A stretch of 32,737 nt of DNA from Pseudomonadota bacterium (GCA_016927275.1 JAFGMW010000037.1:1-32737), one strand, 5' to 3'. Counted from the stretch's first letter, positions 11,385 through 26,738 are shown. Numbers and translations: made by a program. Notes: a model not told the origin generated them from the letters alone.

Positions 11385-13475
11385 TCACTCCTTCCTGCCG
11401 AACACGATTGTCCAGTATATCGGGTTATGATATCCGATATTGTCTTTAATATCCTGAGGCACATCGGTCCCGTAGAAGTAAGCCGCACCGATTTCCTTGA
11501 ATTCCGGTGTCATGATGTTCTTGCAATGGGGCGGGCTCTTGAGCCAAGCCTCCACCGCGTTCTGGACCGAGGTCTGGCCCAGCGCGATGTTCTCGCCCAC
11601 GTGCCTCCATCGGTATCCGGCCGCCGTGACCCGGTCCGATACTCTCCTCCCGTCTTTCCCCTTATGATCCCAGTAGACCTTGGTTGCCATATCGACGGAG
11701 TGCTCCAGCGCCGCCTTCGCCAGAGTTTCGTTCCAGGCTACGGCCGGAGCGGCCCGGAAGTATCCCTCGTCTCCGCATCGTCTCCCCTCGGAGCGGGCCT
11801 GGTTCAAGAGACTGAGCATCTCGTCGGCCTCCTCCTTCGACAATCCGGTTTTTGCGGAGTCGGGCGTGGGGGGCGGTTTGACAGCGGGGCGAGTCTCATT
11901 CAGAGGCGCCGGGATGTCCGATGAGGGGTCTATCTTCTTTATCGCGTCCCATGCGGCCTTTCGCTCCTTGTATTCGCCCTTCCCGTTGACGATCCGGGAG
12001 AGGGCCGGCAAGGAAGAGGCCGCCGCCTTTCCCATCTTTCCCAGCAGGAAGACAGCGGCCGCCCTGGCGTCGCGGTTCCCGCCGCTTGCCTTTGCGGCGA
12101 GGGATGGAACCGCGACCTGGGCTTTCTCCCCCATCTTGAGAAGCGCATCGACTGCGCCGAGCCTGACCGCAAAACCTGCATGTTCCAGAAGAGCCACGAG
12201 ATCCTCGGCCTGGTCGGGATGAGGTGCCCCTATGTTGCGCAGCGCACTCTGGGCGCTGTTGACGAGCTGTTTATCGGGGTCTTCCAGGCGCCCGACAAGG
12301 GCAGGCACTGCAGGCGCGCTCACGGCCCCCATCTTTCCCAGGAGGAAAGCCGCGTTCCTTGCCTCCGACGCGCCCCGTGTGACGAATATGTCGACGAGCA
12401 GCGGGACCGCATCCTTCGCCTTGGGCCCCAGCGCGATGAGGGCCCCCGTCGCCTCGATTCTCGTGCCCAGATCAGGGTCCGAAAATATCATTCGGGCGAT
12501 TTTGACTGCAGAGGCCGATTCTCCGACTCTGCCCAGCGCCTTGGCGGCCGCGATCCTCACCTTGGGCGAATCGTCGTCGAGCAGGCCGAGGAGCTTTTTC
12601 CGGGCTTTTTTGTCGCCGGTCATCGCCCTGCCCAGTTCTTCGGCAGCTTTCGCTCGCACCGACGGGTCGTGATGCGCAAGGCAGCGCAGCAGCTCCTTTT
12701 CAAGACGGCCCGATTTCATCAGGCTGAGCTCGCTGCGCGCGGAGAGCCTCACGCCCTGGTCCGAATGCGAGAGGGCAGAGAGGAGAGCGGGCACGCCGTG
12801 GTCGCCCAGCGGGTCCTGCGCCGCCGAGGGCTTTGGTTGAGCCGGGGCGGGGGTCGGGGGCTGGGCAGGGGTCGATTCGACCTCGCCAGCCTCTATCCTC
12901 TTGAGCGCCAGGATCGCCGCGGCCTTTACGTCAGGGTCCTTTCCCCTCTTCAGGGCGCCTAGCTTGCGAAGGGTCTCCTTGTCTTTTGCGAAGATCCTGC
13001 CCAGGGAATCGATGCATTCGAGCTTGGTCTCCTTGTAGCTTCGGTCTATCAGATCAAGCAGTATCTTGACCACCTGGCCGGCCTCGTCCCTGGCCTCGGC
13101 CCCCATCTCGCCCAGCTCCCTGATCGCGTCGATGTCCGAAAAAAAGGAGGCCATCTCAGCCACGTTTGCTCGACGGACGCGGAAGGCGCTCATCCCGTCG
13201 GGCCCGGCCAATGTCGCGCGAAAGTAATCGGCCAACCCCATGGCCTTGAGCCTGCCATTCTCCTCGGGCGTGACTATCGCTGAGAGGCCCTTGCCCAGCG
13301 CGCCCCTCAGCGCCGAGCACTGCCCCTTTGAGACGTACACGTCAGGGAGGACCCCCTTTTCAAGGTCCGCGCATTCCTCATCGCTTATGCCCTCGCCGGT
13401 CGCGTTTGCCTCCATGACCTTTCTGGCGAGCGCTATCTGGTAGTCGTTTGTCGCGACCTTGCCCGGACCGGCCAT
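11385..13475 (-). CDS. HEAT-repeat protein fused to a C-terminal CAP (SCP/PR-1) domain
   Basis: 696 residues without a signal peptide. Order: an N-terminal helical region (1-200) including an EF-hand-like or Ca-free helix-loop with ISDEECADLEKG; a proline-rich linker at about 200-222 (TPAQPPTPAPAQPKP); roughly eight HEAT/PBS-type repeats at about 226-515 (for example VRLSARSEL, VRAKAAEELGRA, VRIAAAKALGRVG, RNAAFLLGKMG, RAAAVFLLGKMG); a second proline-rich linker; and a CAP domain at about 544-696 with H592, GENIALG (E628) and PPHCKNIM (H650). CAP domains are usually secreted, so the lack of an export signal is odd. The start at 13475 has AGGAG 7 bases upstream and is preferred to the longer form from 13532. 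Function unknown; HEAT repeats imply a scaffold or binding role. Confidence 0.88.
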   Translation of the reverse strand: MAGPGKVATNDYQIALARKVMEANATGEGISDEECADLEKGVLPDVYVSKGQCSALRGALGKGLSAIVTPEENGRLKAMGLADYFRATLAGPDGMSAFRVRRANVAEMASFFSDIDAIRELGEMGAEARDEAGQVVKILLDLIDRSYKETKLECIDSLGRIFAKDKETLRKLGALKRGKDPDVKAAAILALKRIEAGEVESTPAQPPTPAPAQPKPSAAQDPLGDHGVPALLSALSHSDQGVRLSARSELSLMKSGRLEKELLRCLAHHDPSVRAKAAEELGRAMTGDKKARKKLLGLLDDDSPKVRIAAAKALGRVGESASAVKIARMIFSDPDLGTRIEATGALIALGPKAKDAVPLLVDIFVTRGASEARNAAFLLGKMGAVSAPAVPALVGRLEDPDKQLVNSAQSALRNIGAPHPDQAEDLVALLEHAGFAVRLGAVDALLKMGEKAQVAVPSLAAKASGGNRDARAAAVFLLGKMGKAAASSLPALSRIVNGKGEYKERKAAWDAIKKIDPSSDIPAPLNETRPAVKPPPTPDSAKTGLSKEEADEMLSLLNQARSEGRRCGDEGYFRAAPAVAWNETLAKAALEHSVDMATKVYWDHKGKDGRRVSDRVTAAGYRWRHVGENIALGQTSVQNAVEAWLKSPPHCKNIMTPEFKEIGAAYFYGTDVPQDIKDNIGYHNPIYWTIVFGRKE

Positions 13476-13578
13476 CGTCTCTCCTCTATTCCCTGCACGC
13501 ACTGCCTGTAACACCTTATCGCCATTTGGCAATATAAGTTGCTATGATAAACGGCCAATTTCGCACAATACAACTAAT

Positions 13579-19569: not shown

Positions 19570-19650
19570 CAAACCCTTGATGAATCCCGAAAGTTTTCGT
19601 ACATCCTCCCAGCCGCGGTCGTCTTTCCGGCCGCGCACAGGGGGTGTGTG

Positions 19651-21309
19651 ATGCAGGTTGTCGCGGCAGCGCTGGTCCTCTTTCTGACCGTCCTCTCCTC
19701 GCCGTCAGCGGGCAATGCGGAGGAGGCGAAGGCGGCCCTCTCACCGGCAGCGGCAGGCATAGAGCAGCTCGTACGCTCCCGCGGCGACGAGGCCGGGGAG
19801 CCGCTCGAGTTGAGGGCCCAGCTCGAGCGCTTCTACTCCGCGAGGTCGTTCGAGCCGGCGTTCGGCTCGGAGCGCGACTCCAGGGCGCTCATCGAGGCGA
19901 TCAAGGGCGCGGGCGAGCACGGCCTCAGGCCCGAGCGGTACCACCTCAACTCCATAGAGCGGCTCGAAAGCGGGCCTGCGCGCGACGTCCTCATGACCGA
20001 CGCATTCCTCACCCTGGCCTCGCACCTCGACGCAGGCATCGAGAACCCCTACTTCTCACGGGCCAACCAGCAGAGGCCGCAATCGGGGACCGACCTCGTG
20101 GCGGCGCTCGCCGCCGCCCTGGAGAGGCGCGACGTGAAGGGCGCCCTGGAGAGGCTCGCCCCTCAGACCGAAGAGTACCGCCGCCTCATGGCGGCGATGA
20201 AGAGGGCCGATGAGATGGCGGCCTCCGAGTCATGGCCCAGAGTCCCGGAGGGGGGCGCCCGGAAGATAGAGCCGGGCAAGCGCGATCCCCGCATACCCGC
20301 GATCCGCGCGAGGCTCGCAGCGGAGGGGTTCGTGCAGGGCCCGAGCCGGTCCGCGGAGAGGAACAGGTCGGAGATAAACGGACACATGGCCGCGAGCTCC
20401 GCCGCCCTGCCAGAGGACCTCTACGACGAGGAGCTGGTGCAGGCGGTCATGAGCTTCCAGGAGAAGTACGGCCTCGGAGTGGACGGGGTGATAGGGAGGG
20501 CCACGCTGGCCAACCTCAACTACGACCCCGCGTTCCGCGCCTGCCAGGTGAGGGTCAACCTCGACAGGCTCCGGGGCCTCAGGCACGTCATCGTCACCGA
20601 CCGCTACGCCCTGGTCAACATCCCCGAGTTCTCGCTCACCATCTATGAGAACGGCGCCCCGATAAAGGAGATGAAGGTCATCGCCGGCATGGTCGACCGC
20701 AAGTCGCCGCTGATGTCGGACAACATCCGGTTCATCGTCTTCTCCCCGAAGTGGCACGTCCCGCGCTCCATCGCGGTCAAGGACAAGCTTCCCAAGATAA
20801 AGAAGGACCCCTCCTACATACGCAGGCAGGGGATGAAGGTCTACACCGTCGGCGAGACCGGGATCGAGGAGGTGGAGCCGGAGTCCATCGACTGGGAGGA
20901 GGTCGACGCCTCCAACTTCGCCTACCGGATCGTGCAGGACGCGCGCGACGACAACGCCCTCGGCAGGGTCAAGTTCATGTTCCCGAACCGCCACGACGTC
21001 TATCTGCACGACACGCCCACCAAGTCGCTGTTCAACTCCGGCACGCGCACGTTCAGCTCCGGCTGCATACGCATCTCCGACCCGATCTGGTTCGCCGAGT
21101 ACCTCCTCAGGGATACCGGCGCCTGGGACCGGGGCCGCATCGACGGCGCCATGAAGCGCGCGAGCCCGCTCGTGGTGGATTTGCCCGAGAAGATGCCGAT
21201 CCACATCCTCTACATCTCGGCGCGCGGCGACGAGAGGGGTGAGCCCGTGTTCAGGCACGACGTCTACGGGTTCGACCGCGCCCTCTCGAAGAGGCTGTGC
21301 GGTCAGTGA
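19651..21309 (+). CDS. L,D-transpeptidase, YcbB/LdtD type
   Basis: 552 residues. A signal peptide at 1 to about 23 (ending in the SAGNA region) leads into a scaffold region, then a peptidoglycan-binding-like segment (DEELVQAVMSFQEKYGLGVDGVIGRATLANLN, about 251-282) and a YkuD catalytic domain. The active-site block is complete: HDTPTKSLFNS, then FSSGCIRI with the nucleophile C472. Members of this class make 3-3 peptidoglycan cross-links or anchor outer-membrane lipoproteins to the wall, which would suit the Pal and OmpA-type lipoproteins elsewhere in the window. ATG 19651 follows a GGGGGTG ribosome-binding site; GTG 19648 is directly adjacent. The final ~35 residues (YISARGDERGE to the end) extend past the domain, as in LdtD relatives. 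Confidence 0.92.
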   Translation: MQVVAAALVLFLTVLSSPSAGNAEEAKAALSPAAAGIEQLVRSRGDEAGEPLELRAQLERFYSARSFEPAFGSERDSRALIEAIKGAGEHGLRPERYHLNSIERLESGPARDVLMTDAFLTLASHLDAGIENPYFSRANQQRPQSGTDLVAALAAALERRDVKGALERLAPQTEEYRRLMAAMKRADEMAASESWPRVPEGGARKIEPGKRDPRIPAIRARLAAEGFVQGPSRSAERNRSEINGHMAASSAALPEDLYDEELVQAVMSFQEKYGLGVDGVIGRATLANLNYDPAFRACQVRVNLDRLRGLRHVIVTDRYALVNIPEFSLTIYENGAPIKEMKVIAGMVDRKSPLMSDNIRFIVFSPKWHVPRSIAVKDKLPKIKKDPSYIRRQGMKVYTVGETGIEEVEPESIDWEEVDASNFAYRIVQDARDDNALGRVKFMFPNRHDVYLHDTPTKSLFNSGTRTFSSGCIRISDPIWFAEYLLRDTGAWDRGRIDGAMKRASPLVVDLPEKMPIHILYISARGDERGEPVFRHDVYGFDRALSKRLCGQ

Positions 21310-21430: not shown

Positions 21431-22420
21431 ATGGCACAAGCAAACCGCCGTGTCCTTGCCAGGTCGCTCAAAGATATAACCGATGTGAATCCGGACCAGC
21501 TCAGGGGGGACCGCCCCAGGCCGGTGCTCGTCTCCGCGCCCGCGGCGGAGCCGGTTCCGGAGGGCGACGACGGGCGCTCCGCCTGCCAGGTGATATGCGT
21601 GGCCAGCGGCAAGGGCGGCACCGGCAAGACCGTGGTCACCACCAACCTCGCCGTGTCGCTCGTCCAGCAGGGGCTCGACGTGCTGCTGTTCGACGCGGAC
21701 CTGGGGCTGGCCAACGCCCACGTGCTGCTCGGGGTGAGCCCGCCCTACGACATCTCGCAGGTTGTCTCGGGCGAGCGCAGGCTCGACGAGGTGGTCGTGG
21801 AGTGCCACGCCGGGGTGAAGCTCATAAGCGGCGGCTCCGGGTTCTCGGACCTGGCCGAGCTCAAGGACTGGCAGGTGCGCAACATCGCCGACCAGCTCAA
21901 GGTCTACGAGGACCACGCCGACGTGATCCTCGTCGATCTCTCGGCCGGGATCAGCCCGCAGGTGATGCGCTTTCTGAACACCGCGCACGACGTGATCGTC
22001 GTGACCACCCCAGACGTCACCGCGCTGCTCGACGCCTACGCCACGGTCAAGTCCATGTCGAGGGGTAGGGCCGGCCTCGAGGTGAAGGTCGTCGTCAACC
22101 GCGCCAGGAACGAGGGGGAGGCGAGGGCGGCCTTCGAGAAGATGCAGAGCGTGGTCTCGAGGCACCTCGAGGGCGTGACCCTCAGCATGTTCGAGTGGAT
22201 ACCGTTCAACTGGTACGTGCAGAACTCGGTCAACATGCGCCAGCCGGTGGTGCTGCTCCACCCGAAGAGCTTCGTGACGAGGACCTTCAGCGACATGGCC
22301 TCGCGGCTCAAGGGCGAGAACGCCAGGTGGAAAGAGCGGGCGCGCTCGGAGCAGGCCGACAGGCACGAGGGGGGTGCGCTCTCCTTCGCCAGGAGGCTGG
22401 CGAGGATGGTCTTCAAATAG
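21431..22420 (+). CDS. MinD/FlhG-like ParA-superfamily ATPase
   Basis: 329 residues. The deviant Walker A is ASGKGGTGKT (about 58-67), followed by LLFDADLGLANAHVLLG (switch I, typical of MinD and FlhG), then VILVDLSAGISPQVMRFL (Walker B), and VVVNRARNEGEA. The C-terminal FARRLARMVFK can form a short basic amphipathic helix like the membrane-targeting sequence of MinD. The N-terminal ~55 residues are a proline- and arginine-rich extension. It is likely to dimerise on ATP and bind membrane. FlhG-type proteins set flagellar number, but no flagellar gene is in the window, so the target is unknown. ATG 21431 has GGGGGAG 5 bases upstream. First gene of a four-gene operon. Confidence 0.9.
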   Translation: MAQANRRVLARSLKDITDVNPDQLRGDRPRPVLVSAPAAEPVPEGDDGRSACQVICVASGKGGTGKTVVTTNLAVSLVQQGLDVLLFDADLGLANAHVLLGVSPPYDISQVVSGERRLDEVVVECHAGVKLISGGSGFSDLAELKDWQVRNIADQLKVYEDHADVILVDLSAGISPQVMRFLNTAHDVIVVTTPDVTALLDAYATVKSMSRGRAGLEVKVVVNRARNEGEARAAFEKMQSVVSRHLEGVTLSMFEWIPFNWYVQNSVNMRQPVVLLHPKSFVTRTFSDMASRLKGENARWKERARSEQADRHEGGALSFARRLARMVFK

Positions 22421-22426
22421 GCGGGG

Positions 22427-23104
22427 ATGAAGCTGATAAACATAAAGGGGATGACCCCCAAACAGGAGAGATCGTACCGGCTCTGCGTCGCGGGGCAGCG
22501 GATCGCCTTCGACAGGGAGGAGGCGATCGAGGCGCTGCAGGGGCAGATCGCCTCGGTGGAGCCGGAGTCGAAGGTCCTCGGCAGGGGGCTGGCGGTGCCG
22601 GAGCTCGGGCGCATAGACCTCGTCGCGGTGGACGGCGAGGGCAGGCTCCTCGCCGCCTCGGTCTGCGACGAGCTCACGCCCGAGGACGTGGCCCTGGCCA
22701 TCATGCGGTGCAAGTGGGCCACCGACAACATCGATATGCTCCAGCACATCTACTCCCGCCGCTTCAGGGCCGGCGACGCCAGGGCCTGGGTGCTGGCCCG
22801 CTCGATAGCGCCCTCGGCCGCGGCCATCACGGCCCGGATGGGGACGCCGCTTGAGATATTCACCATGGAGATGCTCGATCTGGCCGGCGATGCGTGGATG
22901 GTGCTCAGAAGGCATGCGGGCGGGGTCTCGGCCCCGGCCGCGCCGGCGGCGGAGCCGTGCGTCGCGGAGGAGGGGCCGGCCGCGGGAAGGGGCGTCGTGG
23001 GGATCAGGTCCGTGCTGACCCGCGAGGAGATCGACGACTTCTTCGCCCCGGCAGGGGACGGGGAGGAGATAACAAACAGCGGTTCCGTGTTCAGGGACCT
23101 CTAG
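22427..23104 (+). CDS. unknown protein with NucS/PD-(D/E)XK-like core, between two ATPases
   Basis: 225 residues, no certain family. Residues about 58-110 (LGRIDLVAVDGEGRLLAASVCDELTPEDVALAIMRCKWATDNIDML) follow the layout of NucS/RecB-type endonuclease cores (GxIDLLAxDxxGxxVVIELK), but the catalytic ExK strand reads SVC, so it is probably inactive and used for binding. A linker rich in Ala, Pro and Glu follows, then a short conserved-looking peptide SVLTREEIDDFFAP near 199-212 that resembles the LSQEEIDALL motif at the FliM N-terminus. It begins 6 bases after the MinD-like gene and ends 11 before the ParA gene, so it should work with them. Function unknown. Confidence 0.7.
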   Translation: MKLINIKGMTPKQERSYRLCVAGQRIAFDREEAIEALQGQIASVEPESKVLGRGLAVPELGRIDLVAVDGEGRLLAASVCDELTPEDVALAIMRCKWATDNIDMLQHIYSRRFRAGDARAWVLARSIAPSAAAITARMGTPLEIFTMEMLDLAGDAWMVLRRHAGGVSAPAAPAAEPCVAEEGPAAGRGVVGIRSVLTREEIDDFFAPAGDGEEITNSGSVFRDL

Positions 23105-23115
23105 GGGGAGGGCTC

Positions 23116-23943
23116 ATGTTCGTCATATCCGTGGCAAATCAGAAGGGCGGTTCGGGAAAGACGACCACTGCCGTCAACCTCGCGGCATGCCTCGCGATGA
23201 AGGGGTGCCGCACGCTGCTGGTGGACCTGGACCCGCAGGCGCAGGCCTCGGCCTTTCTCCGGATCGAGGACCGCAGCCCGAAGGCCACGGTCTTCGACGG
23301 CATCCTGGAGACGCGGACGCAGGGCGTGAACGCCGACGACCTCTACGTCCCCATCACGCAGAGGCTCACGCTCATGCCCTCGGAGGGGATAACCGCCGAC
23401 GACGAGGCCAGGCTCGTGGCTCAGCCCAACCGGGAGAACCGGCTCAACGATCTGCTCGCCGGCGCGAAGGGGAAATACGACTTCGTGGTCGTCGACTGCC
23501 CGCCCACGCTCGGGATGCTCACCCGCAACGCCCTCATGGCCTCGAACGCCGTGCTGCTCACGGTTGAGACGAGCTTCCTCGCGCTCCACGGCATGGGCCG
23601 CATGCTCAACCTCGTGCAGGAGGTTCGAAACCACAAGGCGCTCAGGGTCTACGCGTTGGCCACGATGTTCGACGGCCGCACCTCTTTCTCCCGCGAGGTC
23701 CTCGAGGACATGCGCGGCTTCTTCGAGGAGATGATGCTCGACACGGTGATCCGCCAGAACGTGCGCCTCAAGGAGGCAGCGAGCCACGGCGAGCCCATAT
23801 TCACCTACTCGCGCAGCTCGCGCGGCGCCGAGGACTACAGGGCGATGACCGACGAGCTGCTCGGAAGGATCATCACCGACATAGAGGATTTCAAGAGCCT
23901 GGTGCCCGAGTACGGCCCCGACAACTCGGCCACTGACCACTGA
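23116..23943 (+). CDS. ParA/Soj-type ATPase
   Basis: 275 residues with the classic ParA layout: VANQKGGSGKTTTAVNLAA (deviant Walker A with the signature lysine, 6-24), LLVDLDPQAQAS (A' motif), VVVDCPPTLGMLTRNALMAS (Walker B) and TVETSFLALHGM. The C-terminus (AASHGEPIFTYSRSSRGAEDY) has the usual ParA ending. No ParB or parS-like gene is adjacent, so it is probably an orphan ParA that positions a cargo protein, perhaps the nuclease-like neighbour (inference). GGGGGAGGG precedes the ATG at 23116; a longer frame from 22894 overlaps the upstream gene and is rejected. The last residues (SATDH) and the TGA stop lie inside a heptanucleotide repeat. Confidence 0.93.
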   Translation: MFVISVANQKGGSGKTTTAVNLAACLAMKGCRTLLVDLDPQAQASAFLRIEDRSPKATVFDGILETRTQGVNADDLYVPITQRLTLMPSEGITADDEARLVAQPNRENRLNDLLAGAKGKYDFVVVDCPPTLGMLTRNALMASNAVLLTVETSFLALHGMGRMLNLVQEVRNHKALRVYALATMFDGRTSFSREVLEDMRGFFEEMMLDTVIRQNVRLKEAASHGEPIFTYSRSSRGAEDYRAMTDELLGRIITDIEDFKSLVPEYGPDNSATDH

Positions 23944-23978
23944 CCACAGATCACAGATCACTGATCACTGATCACTAA
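23930..23978. repeat. heptanucleotide repeat across the ParA stop codon
   Basis: Seven 7-base units: CCACTGA, CCACTGA, CCACAGA, TCACAGA, TCACTGA, TCACTGA, TCACTAA. The second unit contains the ParA stop (23941-23943). The array ends 18 bases before the next gene and leaves its GGAGGAG ribosome-binding site intact. Confidence 0.9.
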
Positions 23979-23996
23979 CAGAGGAGGAGACAGGAT

Positions 23997-24263
23997 ATGG
24001 TTCTCGAGAGGGTGACATCCAAGTTCACGCGGAGGAAGATATCGAAGTGCGGCGAGGTGCCGCTCCGGCGCAACGACGCCGCTGCGCTGAGAAAGGACCT
24101 CGACGCATGGCTCACGGACAGGACCTGCTGGAACCACGAGGACTGGACGAACCTGCTGGGTGATCTGCGCCAGAAGGGCTACAGCGACCTGATAGACACG
24201 CCCAAGGGCCAGGAGCTCATCGGGCTGTACCTCGAGAACAACAAAAAGACCGCCAGCTGCTGA
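23997..24263 (+). CDS. small charged protein at the end of the ATPase operon
   Basis: 88 residues, not recognised. Basic N-terminus (TSKFTRRKISK), then a helical, tryptophan-containing core (DLDAWLTDRTCWNHEDWTNLL) with YSDLIDTPKGQELIGLYLENNKK. No signal peptide or membrane helix. A strong GGAGGAG precedes the ATG, and it follows the ParA gene by 53 bases of mostly heptad repeat, so it is likely the fourth member of the operon. Its TGA abuts the glycogen phosphorylase stop in TGATCA. It could be a partner or regulator of one of the ATPases; that is a guess from position. Confidence 0.7.
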   Translation: MVLERVTSKFTRRKISKCGEVPLRRNDAAALRKDLDAWLTDRTCWNHEDWTNLLGDLRQKGYSDLIDTPKGQELIGLYLENNKKTASC

Positions 24264-26738
24264 TCAGTACTCCTCGGGATTCGTGCCCCAGACCTTCGAG
24301 GAGTACTCCGCCACAGTGCGATCGCTCGAGAAGCGGCCCATCCTCGCTGCGGTGAGGATGGCCCGCTTCGTCCATTCGCGCTTGTCGTTGAAGAGCTTTG
24401 CCGCCTCCCGCTGCTTCTCGGCGTAGGAGCCGAAGTCGGCGAGCACGAAGAAGCGGTCGCCCCCGCGCAGGAGCGAATCCACGATCGGCTGGAATATGCC
24501 CGGCTCGCGCCAGTTGAAGTGGTCCTCGGCGATCATCTGCACCGCCCTGCGCAGGCGCTCGTCCTTCTCGAGGCAGCTCATGGGGAAGTATCCCTGGCGC
24601 CTCTGCTGCTCTATCTCCTCCTCGGTGTAGCCGAAGACGAAGAGGTTCTCGCGGCCCACGGTCTCGGCGATCTCGATGTTCGCGCCGTCCATGGTCCCTA
24701 TGGTCAGCGCGCCGTTGAGCGCGAGCTTCATGTTGCCGGTGCCGGAGGCCTCGGTGCCCGCGGTCGATATCTGCTCGGAGAGGTCGGCGGCCGGGATGAT
24801 CCTCTCAGCCAGCGACACCGAGTAGTTCCTGAGGAAAACGACCTTGAGCACGTCCTTCGTCGCCGGGTCCAGGTTGATCGTGCCGGCCACCGAGTTTATG
24901 AGCTTTATGATGAGCTTGGCCATCCTGTAGCCCGGGGCCGCCTTGCCCGCGAAGATCACGGTCCTGGGCGTGAACTCCGCGTTCGGGTTGTCCTTGATCT
25001 CGTTGTAGAGCGCGATCGCGTGCAGGATGTTGAGCAGCTGCCTCTTGTACTCGTGTATCCTCTTTATCTGCACGTCGAACATGGAGTTCACGTCCACGTC
25101 GATCCCCATCGTGTCGCCTATGTACTGCGCCAGCGAGTTCTTGTTGGACCACTTCGCGCTCTGCCACGCCTCGGAGAACTCCTCGTCCGACGCGAAATCC
25201 TCCAGCCTCCTGAGCTCGTTGAGGTCCAGCGCCCAGCCGTCGCCGATGCGCGAATCTATCACCTCGGAGAGGATCGGGTTGGCCTTCTGCAGCCAGCGGC
25301 GCTGCGTGATTCCGTTTGTGATGTTGATGAACTTGTTGGGATAGAACTCGTTGAAGTCGGGGAAGATGCGCTCCTTCAGTATCCTCGTGTGCAGCTCCGC
25401 CACGCCGTTGACCGCGAAGCTGCCCACTATGGCCAGGTTGGCCATCCTCACCCTCTTCTCCGCGCCCTCCTCGATGATCGACATCCTGCGCAGCCTGTCC
25501 ACGTCGCCCGGGTAGACCTTGCCCACCTCGTCCATGAACCGGCGATTGATCTCGTAGACGATGTCCATGTGCCTGGGGAGCAGCGACTGCATGATGGACA
25601 CCGGCCATCTCTCGAGCGCCTCGGCCATGATGGTGTGGTTGGTGTACGCGAACGTGCGGCGCACGATGTCCCATGACAGCTCCCAGGGCATCCGCTCCTC
25701 GTCGAGCAGTATCCTCATGAGCTCCGCGATGGCTATCGACGGGTGCGTGTCGTTGAGCTGGATCGCGATCTTCTCGTGGAAGTCGGAGAGGTCCTTGTGC
25801 TGCCGCTTGTGGATCCTGATTATGTCCTGCAGCGTGGCCGAGACGAAGAAGTACTGCTGCTTGAGGCGGAGCACCTTGCCCGAGTAGTTGTCGTCGTTCG
25901 GGTAGAGGAACTTGGAGATCGCCTCCTGGCCGCTCTTGCGCCGCACCGCCTGCAGGTAGTCGCCGGTCTGGAAGAGGGTGAAGTCCACGTCCTGGGTGGA
26001 CTTGGCCTGCCACAGCCGCAGGTTGTTCACCACGTTGTTGCCGTAGCCGGGCACCGGTATGTCGTACGCGACCGCCATCACGTCGTCGGTGTCGACCCAG
26101 GTGTGTATGGTCTCGCCGGAGCGGAGATGGGCCTTCTGGACGTTGCCGCCGAATCGTATCCTGTAGGTGAGCTCGGGGCGGATCACCTCCCACGGGTTGC
26201 GGTAGGTGAGCCAGTTGTCCGGCACCTCGACCTGATAGCCGTTCTCGATCTTCTGATCGAAGATGCCGTACTCGTAGCGCAGGCCGTAGGCGTATGCGGG
26301 CAGCCTCTGCGTGGCCATGGAGTCGAGGAAGCACGCGGCGAGCCTTCCCAGGCCGCCGTTGCCGAGCCCCATGTCGTGCTCGATCTCGCGGATCTCGTCG
26401 AGCTTGTAGCCCAGGTCGTCGAGTATCTGGGCGCACTCCTCGTAGTACCGCAGGTTGTTGAGCGCGTTGCCGAGCAGGCGGCCCATGAGGTACTCGAGCG
26501 AGAGGTAGTAGACGCGCTTGGCGTCGTGCTCGCGATATTGCCGCTGCGTGCGCAGCCAGCGGCGGATCAGCCTGTCGCGGATCGACATGGCCAGCGCGTT
26601 GTAGGCGTCCTCCTTGGTGACCGTGCTCTTGTCCTTGACCAGCGACAGCTCGATGTGCTCGGCGAACTGGTTGGCCAGCGAGTAGGTGTCCGCGGTCTTG
26701 TGGTCCGTGAAGAAGACTGTGTAGTCCGGTTTGCTCAT
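24264..26738 (-). CDS. glgP: glycogen/alpha-glucan phosphorylase
   Basis: Releases glucose 1-phosphate from glycogen or maltodextrins using pyridoxal phosphate. 824 residues, standard for the family. Seen: LEYLMGRLLGNALNNL and the LGNGGLGRLAACFLDSMAT signature, QLNDTHPSIAIAELMR, FTNHT-like YTNHTIMAEALE, and the PLP site EASGTGNMKLALNGA with the Schiff-base lysine K671, then GTMDGANIEI. The start ATG has no Shine-Dalgarno; a weak GTGACA with TAATCT 17 bases on ends only about 8 bases before the ATG, so a leaderless or very short leader transcript is possible. It lies 46 bases after the M32 carboxypeptidase gene and may be co-transcribed. No other glycogen gene is in the window. Confidence 0.97.
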   Translation of the reverse strand: MSKPDYTVFFTDHKTADTYSLANQFAEHIELSLVKDKSTVTKEDAYNALAMSIRDRLIRRWLRTQRQYREHDAKRVYYLSLEYLMGRLLGNALNNLRYYEECAQILDDLGYKLDEIREIEHDMGLGNGGLGRLAACFLDSMATQRLPAYAYGLRYEYGIFDQKIENGYQVEVPDNWLTYRNPWEVIRPELTYRIRFGGNVQKAHLRSGETIHTWVDTDDVMAVAYDIPVPGYGNNVVNNLRLWQAKSTQDVDFTLFQTGDYLQAVRRKSGQEAISKFLYPNDDNYSGKVLRLKQQYFFVSATLQDIIRIHKRQHKDLSDFHEKIAIQLNDTHPSIAIAELMRILLDEERMPWELSWDIVRRTFAYTNHTIMAEALERWPVSIMQSLLPRHMDIVYEINRRFMDEVGKVYPGDVDRLRRMSIIEEGAEKRVRMANLAIVGSFAVNGVAELHTRILKERIFPDFNEFYPNKFINITNGITQRRWLQKANPILSEVIDSRIGDGWALDLNELRRLEDFASDEEFSEAWQSAKWSNKNSLAQYIGDTMGIDVDVNSMFDVQIKRIHEYKRQLLNILHAIALYNEIKDNPNAEFTPRTVIFAGKAAPGYRMAKLIIKLINSVAGTINLDPATKDVLKVVFLRNYSVSLAERIIPAADLSEQISTAGTEASGTGNMKLALNGALTIGTMDGANIEIAETVGRENLFVFGYTEEEIEQQRRQGYFPMSCLEKDERLRRAVQMIAEDHFNWREPGIFQPIVDSLLRGGDRFFVLADFGSYAEKQREAAKLFNDKREWTKRAILTAARMGRFSSDRTVAEYSSKVWGTNPEEY

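Follow-up and report, generated by a model that had tools for sequence, protein, structure and literature searches.

ParA/MinD ATPases place plasmids, chromosomes, carboxysomes, chemotaxis arrays, flagella and the divisome. Among the closest described systems, FlhG binds the N-terminus of FliM (PMC12826062), and N-terminal peptides of the LGRGL-bearing kind activate ParA/MinD ATPases (PMC12462528, PMC7993993, PMC10241942). Here we describe a four-gene set, A-B-C-D, in a 32,737-nucleotide stretch of DNA (hereafter the window) from a Pseudomonadota bacterium (GCA_016927275.1, JAFGMW010000037.1:1-32737), encoding an FlhG-lineage MinD-like ATPase (A), a degenerate nuclease-like protein (B), an orphan ParA ATPase (C) and a small protein (D). 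The set is very probably a conserved functional module. It may form a non-flagellar spatial organiser of the ParA/MinD family, with A connecting the ParA to B and alpha-glucan as the likeliest cargo, a reading that we put forward tentatively and somewhat short of an even chance.

Several described systems resemble this set in part. McdAB, which positions carboxysomes, likewise has an orphan ParA-type ATPase (McdA) that places a non-DNA cargo by way of a partner (McdB) whose N-terminal peptide is charged (PMC6328274, PMC10241942), whereas in our set a MinD-family ATPase, intact or decayed to a remnant, is the presumed partner, a dead-nuclease protein is added as a third component, and the cargo would not be a carboxysome (no carboxysome genes were found among the scanned window genes; the whole genome was not searched for them). 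In the case of FlhG and the N-terminal EIDAL peptide of FliM/FliY, A is an FlhG relative and the LTREEIDDFF peptide of B resembles the FliM region bound by FlhG (PMC12826062), but here a NucS-fold protein carries this peptide C-terminally, no FlhA or flagellum was found in the source genome, and A branches apart. With ParABS the set shares a ParA (i.e., C), and the LGRGL of related MinD-like proteins matches the ParA-binding motif of ParB; C nevertheless falls outside the canonical ParA clade, and family scans revealed no ParB-domain protein among A, B and D (parS was not searched for). PomXYZ of Myxococcus also combines a ParA/MinD ATPase with modular activators bearing N-terminal peptides (PMC7993993), but two ATPases are present here, and no family match ties B or D to PomX or PomY (no direct comparison was made). 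Finally, B has the nuclease-domain fold of NucS/EndoMS, yet lacks both the catalytic Glu of the Glu-x-Lys (ExK) motif and the NucS N-terminal domain, and carries a peptide tail instead.

The four genes lie in the same direction on the plus strand, with A at 21431–22420, B (225 aa) at 22427–23104, C at 23116–23943 and D (88 aa) at 23997–24263, separated by intergenic gaps of 6, 11 and 53 nt, respectively, which agrees with the operon described in an earlier note made from this DNA alone. That note had also reported that no ParB or Min gene was present, and none was indeed found among the four products in Pfam and NCBIfam scans (including minC and minE). Immediately downstream, and convergent with D, which it abuts, is glgP (24264–26738, minus strand), encoding a glycogen/alpha-glucan phosphorylase (PF00343, 1099.6 bits). 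With 1.81 Mb in 119 contigs, the source genome is 96% complete. It is one of a group of about 46 genomes that we take to be its phylum, since the relatives listed next have no rank below domain in common with it.

When other genomes were searched for the gene set, A-B-C-D was recovered from another genus of the same family (G001), where it is located between the L,D-transpeptidase gene and glgP, and where the M32 peptidase and HemN genes are kept as well. An adjacent A-B pair with varied neighbours was present in 9 of the 46 phylum genomes. In seven genomes A and B lie next to each other without an adjacent ParA, and the genes flanking these pairs (read by eye from open reading frames) differ, e.g., glmU/glmS or an epimerase-like gene. 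In two other genomes of the same family, A, B and D all lacked a match, while in two genomes of family f5 (G010 and G021) a MinD-like gene is directly followed by a ParA gene, without B. The gene set recurs across bacteria in related forms, and the earlier observation, for which a lack of co-occurrence elsewhere would have been fatal, was right and even understated. An explanation in which an orphan ParA, an FlhG paralogue and two hypothetical genes are ordinary neighbours that share a promoter but no function could draw on the presence of all four genes in only two of the four family genomes; it is already disfavoured, and very improbable in our estimate, by the recurrence of A-B and of ParA/MinD-like/B sets with conserved peptides across families and phyla. 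As a separate observation, the ParAs of the f5 pairs (L062, 4407–6028; L063, 5830–7445) are divergent, and their tail reads VDLNEFD(E/S)MMK, a peptide that perhaps takes the place of B.

The product of A has an intact deviant Walker A motif (ASGKGGTGKT), and its family alignment and tree place it in the FlhG lineage. It matched TIGR01969 at 133.8 bits, i.e., under the 201.75 cut-off of that model, and it is 34–42% identical to FlhG-like proteins; among its best relatives outside the phylum are FlhGs encoded in flagellar operons, and a contig pattern scan with A as query returned mostly FlhG-like proteins. Its designation as a MinD/FlhG-type ATPase is therefore borne out. In the tree, A clustered with the A proteins of its own phylum, apart from flagellar FlhG (support 85/82), no flagellar gene adjoins the operon in the source genome or in G001, and FlhA (PF00771) had no match in the source genome. 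With no FlhA in the genome and A on a branch separate from flagellar FlhG, we rejected the possibility that the operon is a flagellar remnant, and the flagellar or chemotaxis cluster that might have explained both ATPases did not appear. As for the membrane-targeting-like tail ascribed to A, the amphipathic C-terminal stretch FARRLARMVFK (22385–22417, plus strand) does have a hydrophobic moment within the top 1% of the tails of 404 proteins, but a high moment is absent from the tails of relatives, which leaves the membrane claim weak.

The lineage of A also bears on an alternative in which A-B is an FlhG-FliM-like regulatory pair, with B occupying the FliM/FlrA site and the signal passing to transcription or to an FlhA-like secretion system of the class, while C and D are an orphan ParA unit of their own, added to the operon in a single family. 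Such a pair would suit the FlhG ancestry of A, the occurrence of A-B without C, the presence of FlhA-family proteins in nearly all class members, and the fact that FlhG also represses FlrA (PMC12826062). Since the source genome itself is devoid of FlhA, A-B does not track the FlhA-like system, and a ParA has been linked independently to a MinD-like/B pair outside the phylum, we consider this alternative improbable. With regard to the FlhA-family proteins themselves, those of the class score mostly at approximately 790 bits, with some members having an additional copy above 850 bits; the neighbours of the G001 gene, as judged by eye, are FHA-, SecA- and phosphatase-like, and no flagellar genes were recognised among them. 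The class as a whole may possess a type III-like system that is not flagellar.

On its own, B had no Pfam or NCBIfam match, and a contig pattern scan with B alone as query found nothing. An AlphaFold2 model built from 16 sequences was confident over residues 30–150 (predicted local distance difference test score (pLDDT) mostly >90), and its closest solved folds were those of the C-terminal nuclease domain of NucS/EndoMS, clearly ahead of others (Z-scores of 13.7 over 107 residues for 2vld, 13.5 for 5gke, with a Foldseek E-value of 1.3e-5, and 12.4 for 5gkj). The top PDB sequence match of the B family profile was also NucS, though weak (E-value of 0.16). In the profile alignment, VVLELKRR of NucS is opposite LAASVCDE of B, turning ExK into SxC. 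Since the fold (residues 29–158; 22511–22900, plus strand) retains Asp64 but has Ser78-Val-Cys80 in place of Glu-x-Lys, and the catalytic Glu is lost in every aligned family member, B is, as modelled, a catalytically dead nuclease fold of the PD-(D/E)xK type, as the earlier note had recognised in calling it NucS-like without ExK.

Following this domain, the flexible C-terminal tail of B contains the FliM-N-terminus-like peptide LTREEIDDFF (residues 197–206; 23015–23044, plus strand), which that note had also pointed out and which proved to be the best conserved stretch of the family. Among the 16 relatives (13–35% identical to B), Glu201 is the sole invariant residue besides the start Met. The DNA pattern of the peptide occurs once in the whole genome (with no occurrence of its reversed control), and a regular expression for the C-terminal motif matched 9 of 394 proteins, all of them B family members. 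That B binds A via this tail is marginally more probable than that it does not, and by analogy the tail may use the site of FlhG that receives FliM.

A profile search with B reached one genome outside the phylum (G137, E-value of 2.5e-10), in which the contig order is ParA, decayed MinD, B, and in which the C-terminal part of the ParA is a glycogen-recognition domain, AMPK1_CBM (PF16561, 43.5 bits vs. a cut-off of 26.8). Searching with this ParA revealed ParAs fused to a carbohydrate-binding module (ParA-CBM) in 19 genomes from 12 families, as counted from match coverage and tails, and AMPK1_CBM exceeded its curated cut-off in all six CBM-bearing ParAs scanned (35.8–55.9 bits); NCBIfam moreover marks a GlgB-like segment in the CBM part. 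A glucan-contact Trp was present in every tail read, followed by Lys/Arg and Trp in nearly all, at positions that we take to be glucan contacts from a comparison with AMPK beta. A B-like gene follows in six families (f113, f157, f155, f90, f120 and f214; the middle gene of f214 was not cleanly called, and the divergent B genes of f90 and f155 were assigned by position and local similarity), and most of these B-like genes end in a C-terminal LSxEE-type peptide or a variant thereof. In five other families (f213, f179, f107, f45 and f46) a gene with the N-terminal peptide was present without a recognised B, the ParA of f107 lacking the CBM, and at two loci (L220 and L221) ParA-CBM had no recognisable partner. 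Spread of ParA-CBM on plasmids was rejected, as no PLSDB plasmid record covered 80% of it, the matches listed stopping before the CBM part.

The MinD-like proteins of these modules range from having a readable P-loop region (L219) to having none (L178), with f45 retaining nothing but the peptide. They begin with LGRGL.DISH.FLS, whose first half equals the ParA-binding peptide of ParB, or with a looser version of this sequence; in our comparison set, the ParBs beside 12 of the 14 canonical ParA loci begin with LG[RK]GL..LI.

The window set shares some of these traits. C is an intact ParA (AAA_31, 1.2e-45), an orphan as the earlier note described it, and B is a homologue with a C-terminal L[ST].EE peptide. 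C has no AMPK1_CBM fusion, and in the ParA tree it was situated outside both the canonical clade (support 100/99) and the ParA-CBM clade (94/90). Judged from the trees of A and C, the window set is related to the CBM-type module without strictly belonging to it, and its genes stand in a different order. The nearest tree rows of C were the orphan ParAs of G013 and G028 (L070, 1495–2643; L071, 1501–2586), which, as an aside, are the closest to C outside its family and have a long C-terminal extension.

The ParB-like LGRGL peptide stands out in the related modules but is only weakly recognisable in window A, where residues 8–22 (VLARSLKDITDVNPD; 21452–21496, plus strand) constitute a candidate ParA-binding peptide whose counterpart in G001 is FLGRSLRDMTEVAPD; the same N-terminal site reads VLARSLKDITDV in window A and FLGRSLRDMTEV in G001. 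On a peptide matrix built from other loci, with sites picked by eye, window A ranked in the top 2.2% and G001 in the top 5.5% of 880 protein N-termini, the window and G001 sequences being related to each other, while A proteins without an adjacent ParA had background scores. These similarities are suggestive of a weak ParA-binding-like peptide at the N-terminus of window A. A LGRGL string within window B (residues 51–55) was treated as chance since it is unconserved in relatives.

According to the earlier note, the four genes might encode a new positioning system in which B serves both ATPases as an adaptor or as cargo. While the conserved unit, distinct from any flagellar or chemotaxis remnant, fits the first part of this proposal, the role given to B finds no support in that form, as B accompanies A in the seven genomes without an adjacent ParA. 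Since B pairs with A in the absence of ParA, and the sole ParA-directed element found is the N-terminus of A, B looks more likely to be a client of A, in the order ParA, A, B. In the resulting scheme, the gene identities, folds, conservation and linkage are observed, whereas we infer the binding steps, the activation and the cargo. C would be a nucleoid-binding ATPase, its ATP-bound dimers coating the nucleoid. As partner and activator of C, A would touch it with its N-terminal peptide and stimulate hydrolysis, for which we see close to an even chance. B would dock on the MinD fold of A through LTREEIDDFF, as FliM does on FlhG, and its dead NucS domain would contact the cargo or be presented to it. 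This cargo would be alpha-glucan, i.e., glycogen particles or their enzymes, with D and the neighbouring GlgP supplying the glucan link in a lineage whose ParA lost, or never had, a glycogen-binding domain.

Apart from the CBM fusions, the glucan link is brought in by D, which had no Pfam or NCBIfam match above cut-off and homologues with strong scores in only five genomes. D abuts glgP in both the source genome and G001 (family f1). In G045 and G028, its homologues lie within approximately 1 kb of a cluster for amylo-1,6-glucosidase (Pfam-confirmed in G045), a GT5-like synthase, GH57 and alpha-glucan phosphorylase, which places D beside such GDE/GT5/GH57/phosphorylase clusters in two further families (f17 and f21); a further D, in G043, lies at the very end of a 3 kb contig and its neighbourhood is unreadable. 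Literature searches for a ParA with glycogen or CBM48 revealed no such system, most subscription papers being outside their coverage, and glycogen goes unmentioned in a broad paper on ParA/MinD. Alpha-glucan as cargo is an idea new here, which the earlier note had not foreseen, with two independent but indirect supports, and we regard it as possible while leaning against it. The broader proposal, in which a widespread ParA/MinD system positions and partitions glycogen particles, with the ParA binding glucan via CBM48 (here via D/GlgP), a MinD-like protein as ParB-like activator and a dead NucS fold as client-presenting component, is rather unlikely.

A number of observations weigh against the scheme of ParA, A and B acting on alpha-glucan. 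The A-B pair exists without C or D, and the N-terminal peptide of window A matches LGRGL.DISH.FLS only weakly. An AlphaFold2 model of an A-B fusion (by TAG read-through) displayed no clear docking of the tail, with a motif pLDDT of approximately 76 vs. 70 alone. The gene order is A-B-C in the window vs. C-A-B elsewhere. Window C lacks AMPK1_CBM and stands apart from the ParA-CBM clade, and the domain is absent across the source and G001 genomes, so that the source genome has no partner CBM protein either. Furthermore, ParA-CBM loci are not as a rule located beside glycogen genes, glycogen synthase is hardly enriched in ParA-CBM genomes (18/19 vs. 173/222 by our own count), and AMPK1_CBM is also found in non-glycogen proteins (e.g., the extracytoplasmic function (ECF) anti-sigma factors of family f12).

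Several of these points could be accommodated by the same ParA/MinD relay carrying a non-glycogen cargo, such as a protein cluster, an envelope machine or another organelle, with the CBM48 of relatives being merely a protein-interaction E-set domain and with glgP and D being neighbours by descent. The inconsistent neighbours of A-B pairs, the fusion of AMPK1_CBM to anti-sigma factors, the lack of this domain in window C and the absence of strong glycogen synthase enrichment are all in keeping with such a cargo, but D would then stand beside alpha-glucan genes in three families, and ParA-CBM would have retained its glucan-binding Trp/Lys positions, without reference to glucan. We estimate this alternative to be rather unlikely.

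If alpha-glucan is indeed the cargo, a storage-polymer system would extend the list of ParA/MinD cargoes, one in which a family member activates another and a dead DNA-repair fold completes the trio, and the sharing of storage carbon at division would become directly testable. The module series from intact MinD via decayed MinD to peptide only would in turn show how a ParA-family ATPase can give rise to a ParA activator.

Some further features were noted in and around these loci. A known defence system was rejected as a candidate, PADLOC having returned only weak P-loop matches and one weak B match (PDC-S11, E-value of 0.0018). In six loci of f12 and G007 (L232–L237), an ECF sigma factor gene is followed by a gene for an anti-sigma-like membrane protein ending in AMPK1_CBM. 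Within the window, positions 11388–13532 encode a HEAT-repeat protein with a terminal CAP (cysteine-rich secretory) domain, an arrangement that we have not come across elsewhere. Just upstream of A, on the same strand, is the L,D-transpeptidase gene (19648–21306; YkuD, Scaffold and peptidoglycan-binding domains) that is kept in G001. The gap between C and D (23930–23980) is occupied by degenerate head-to-tail ACTGATC/ACAGATC-like heptamers, G001 having only approximately 24 bases there. Finally, elsewhere the source genome carries a further ParA (C98), which shares 38% identity with C, and a further FlhG-like gene (C14), which shares 39% identity with A; such a second FlhG-like paralogue is present in both the source genome and G001 (L057, 5548–6510; L056, 5595–6563), with conserved downstream genes that include one for a small hydrophobic protein.

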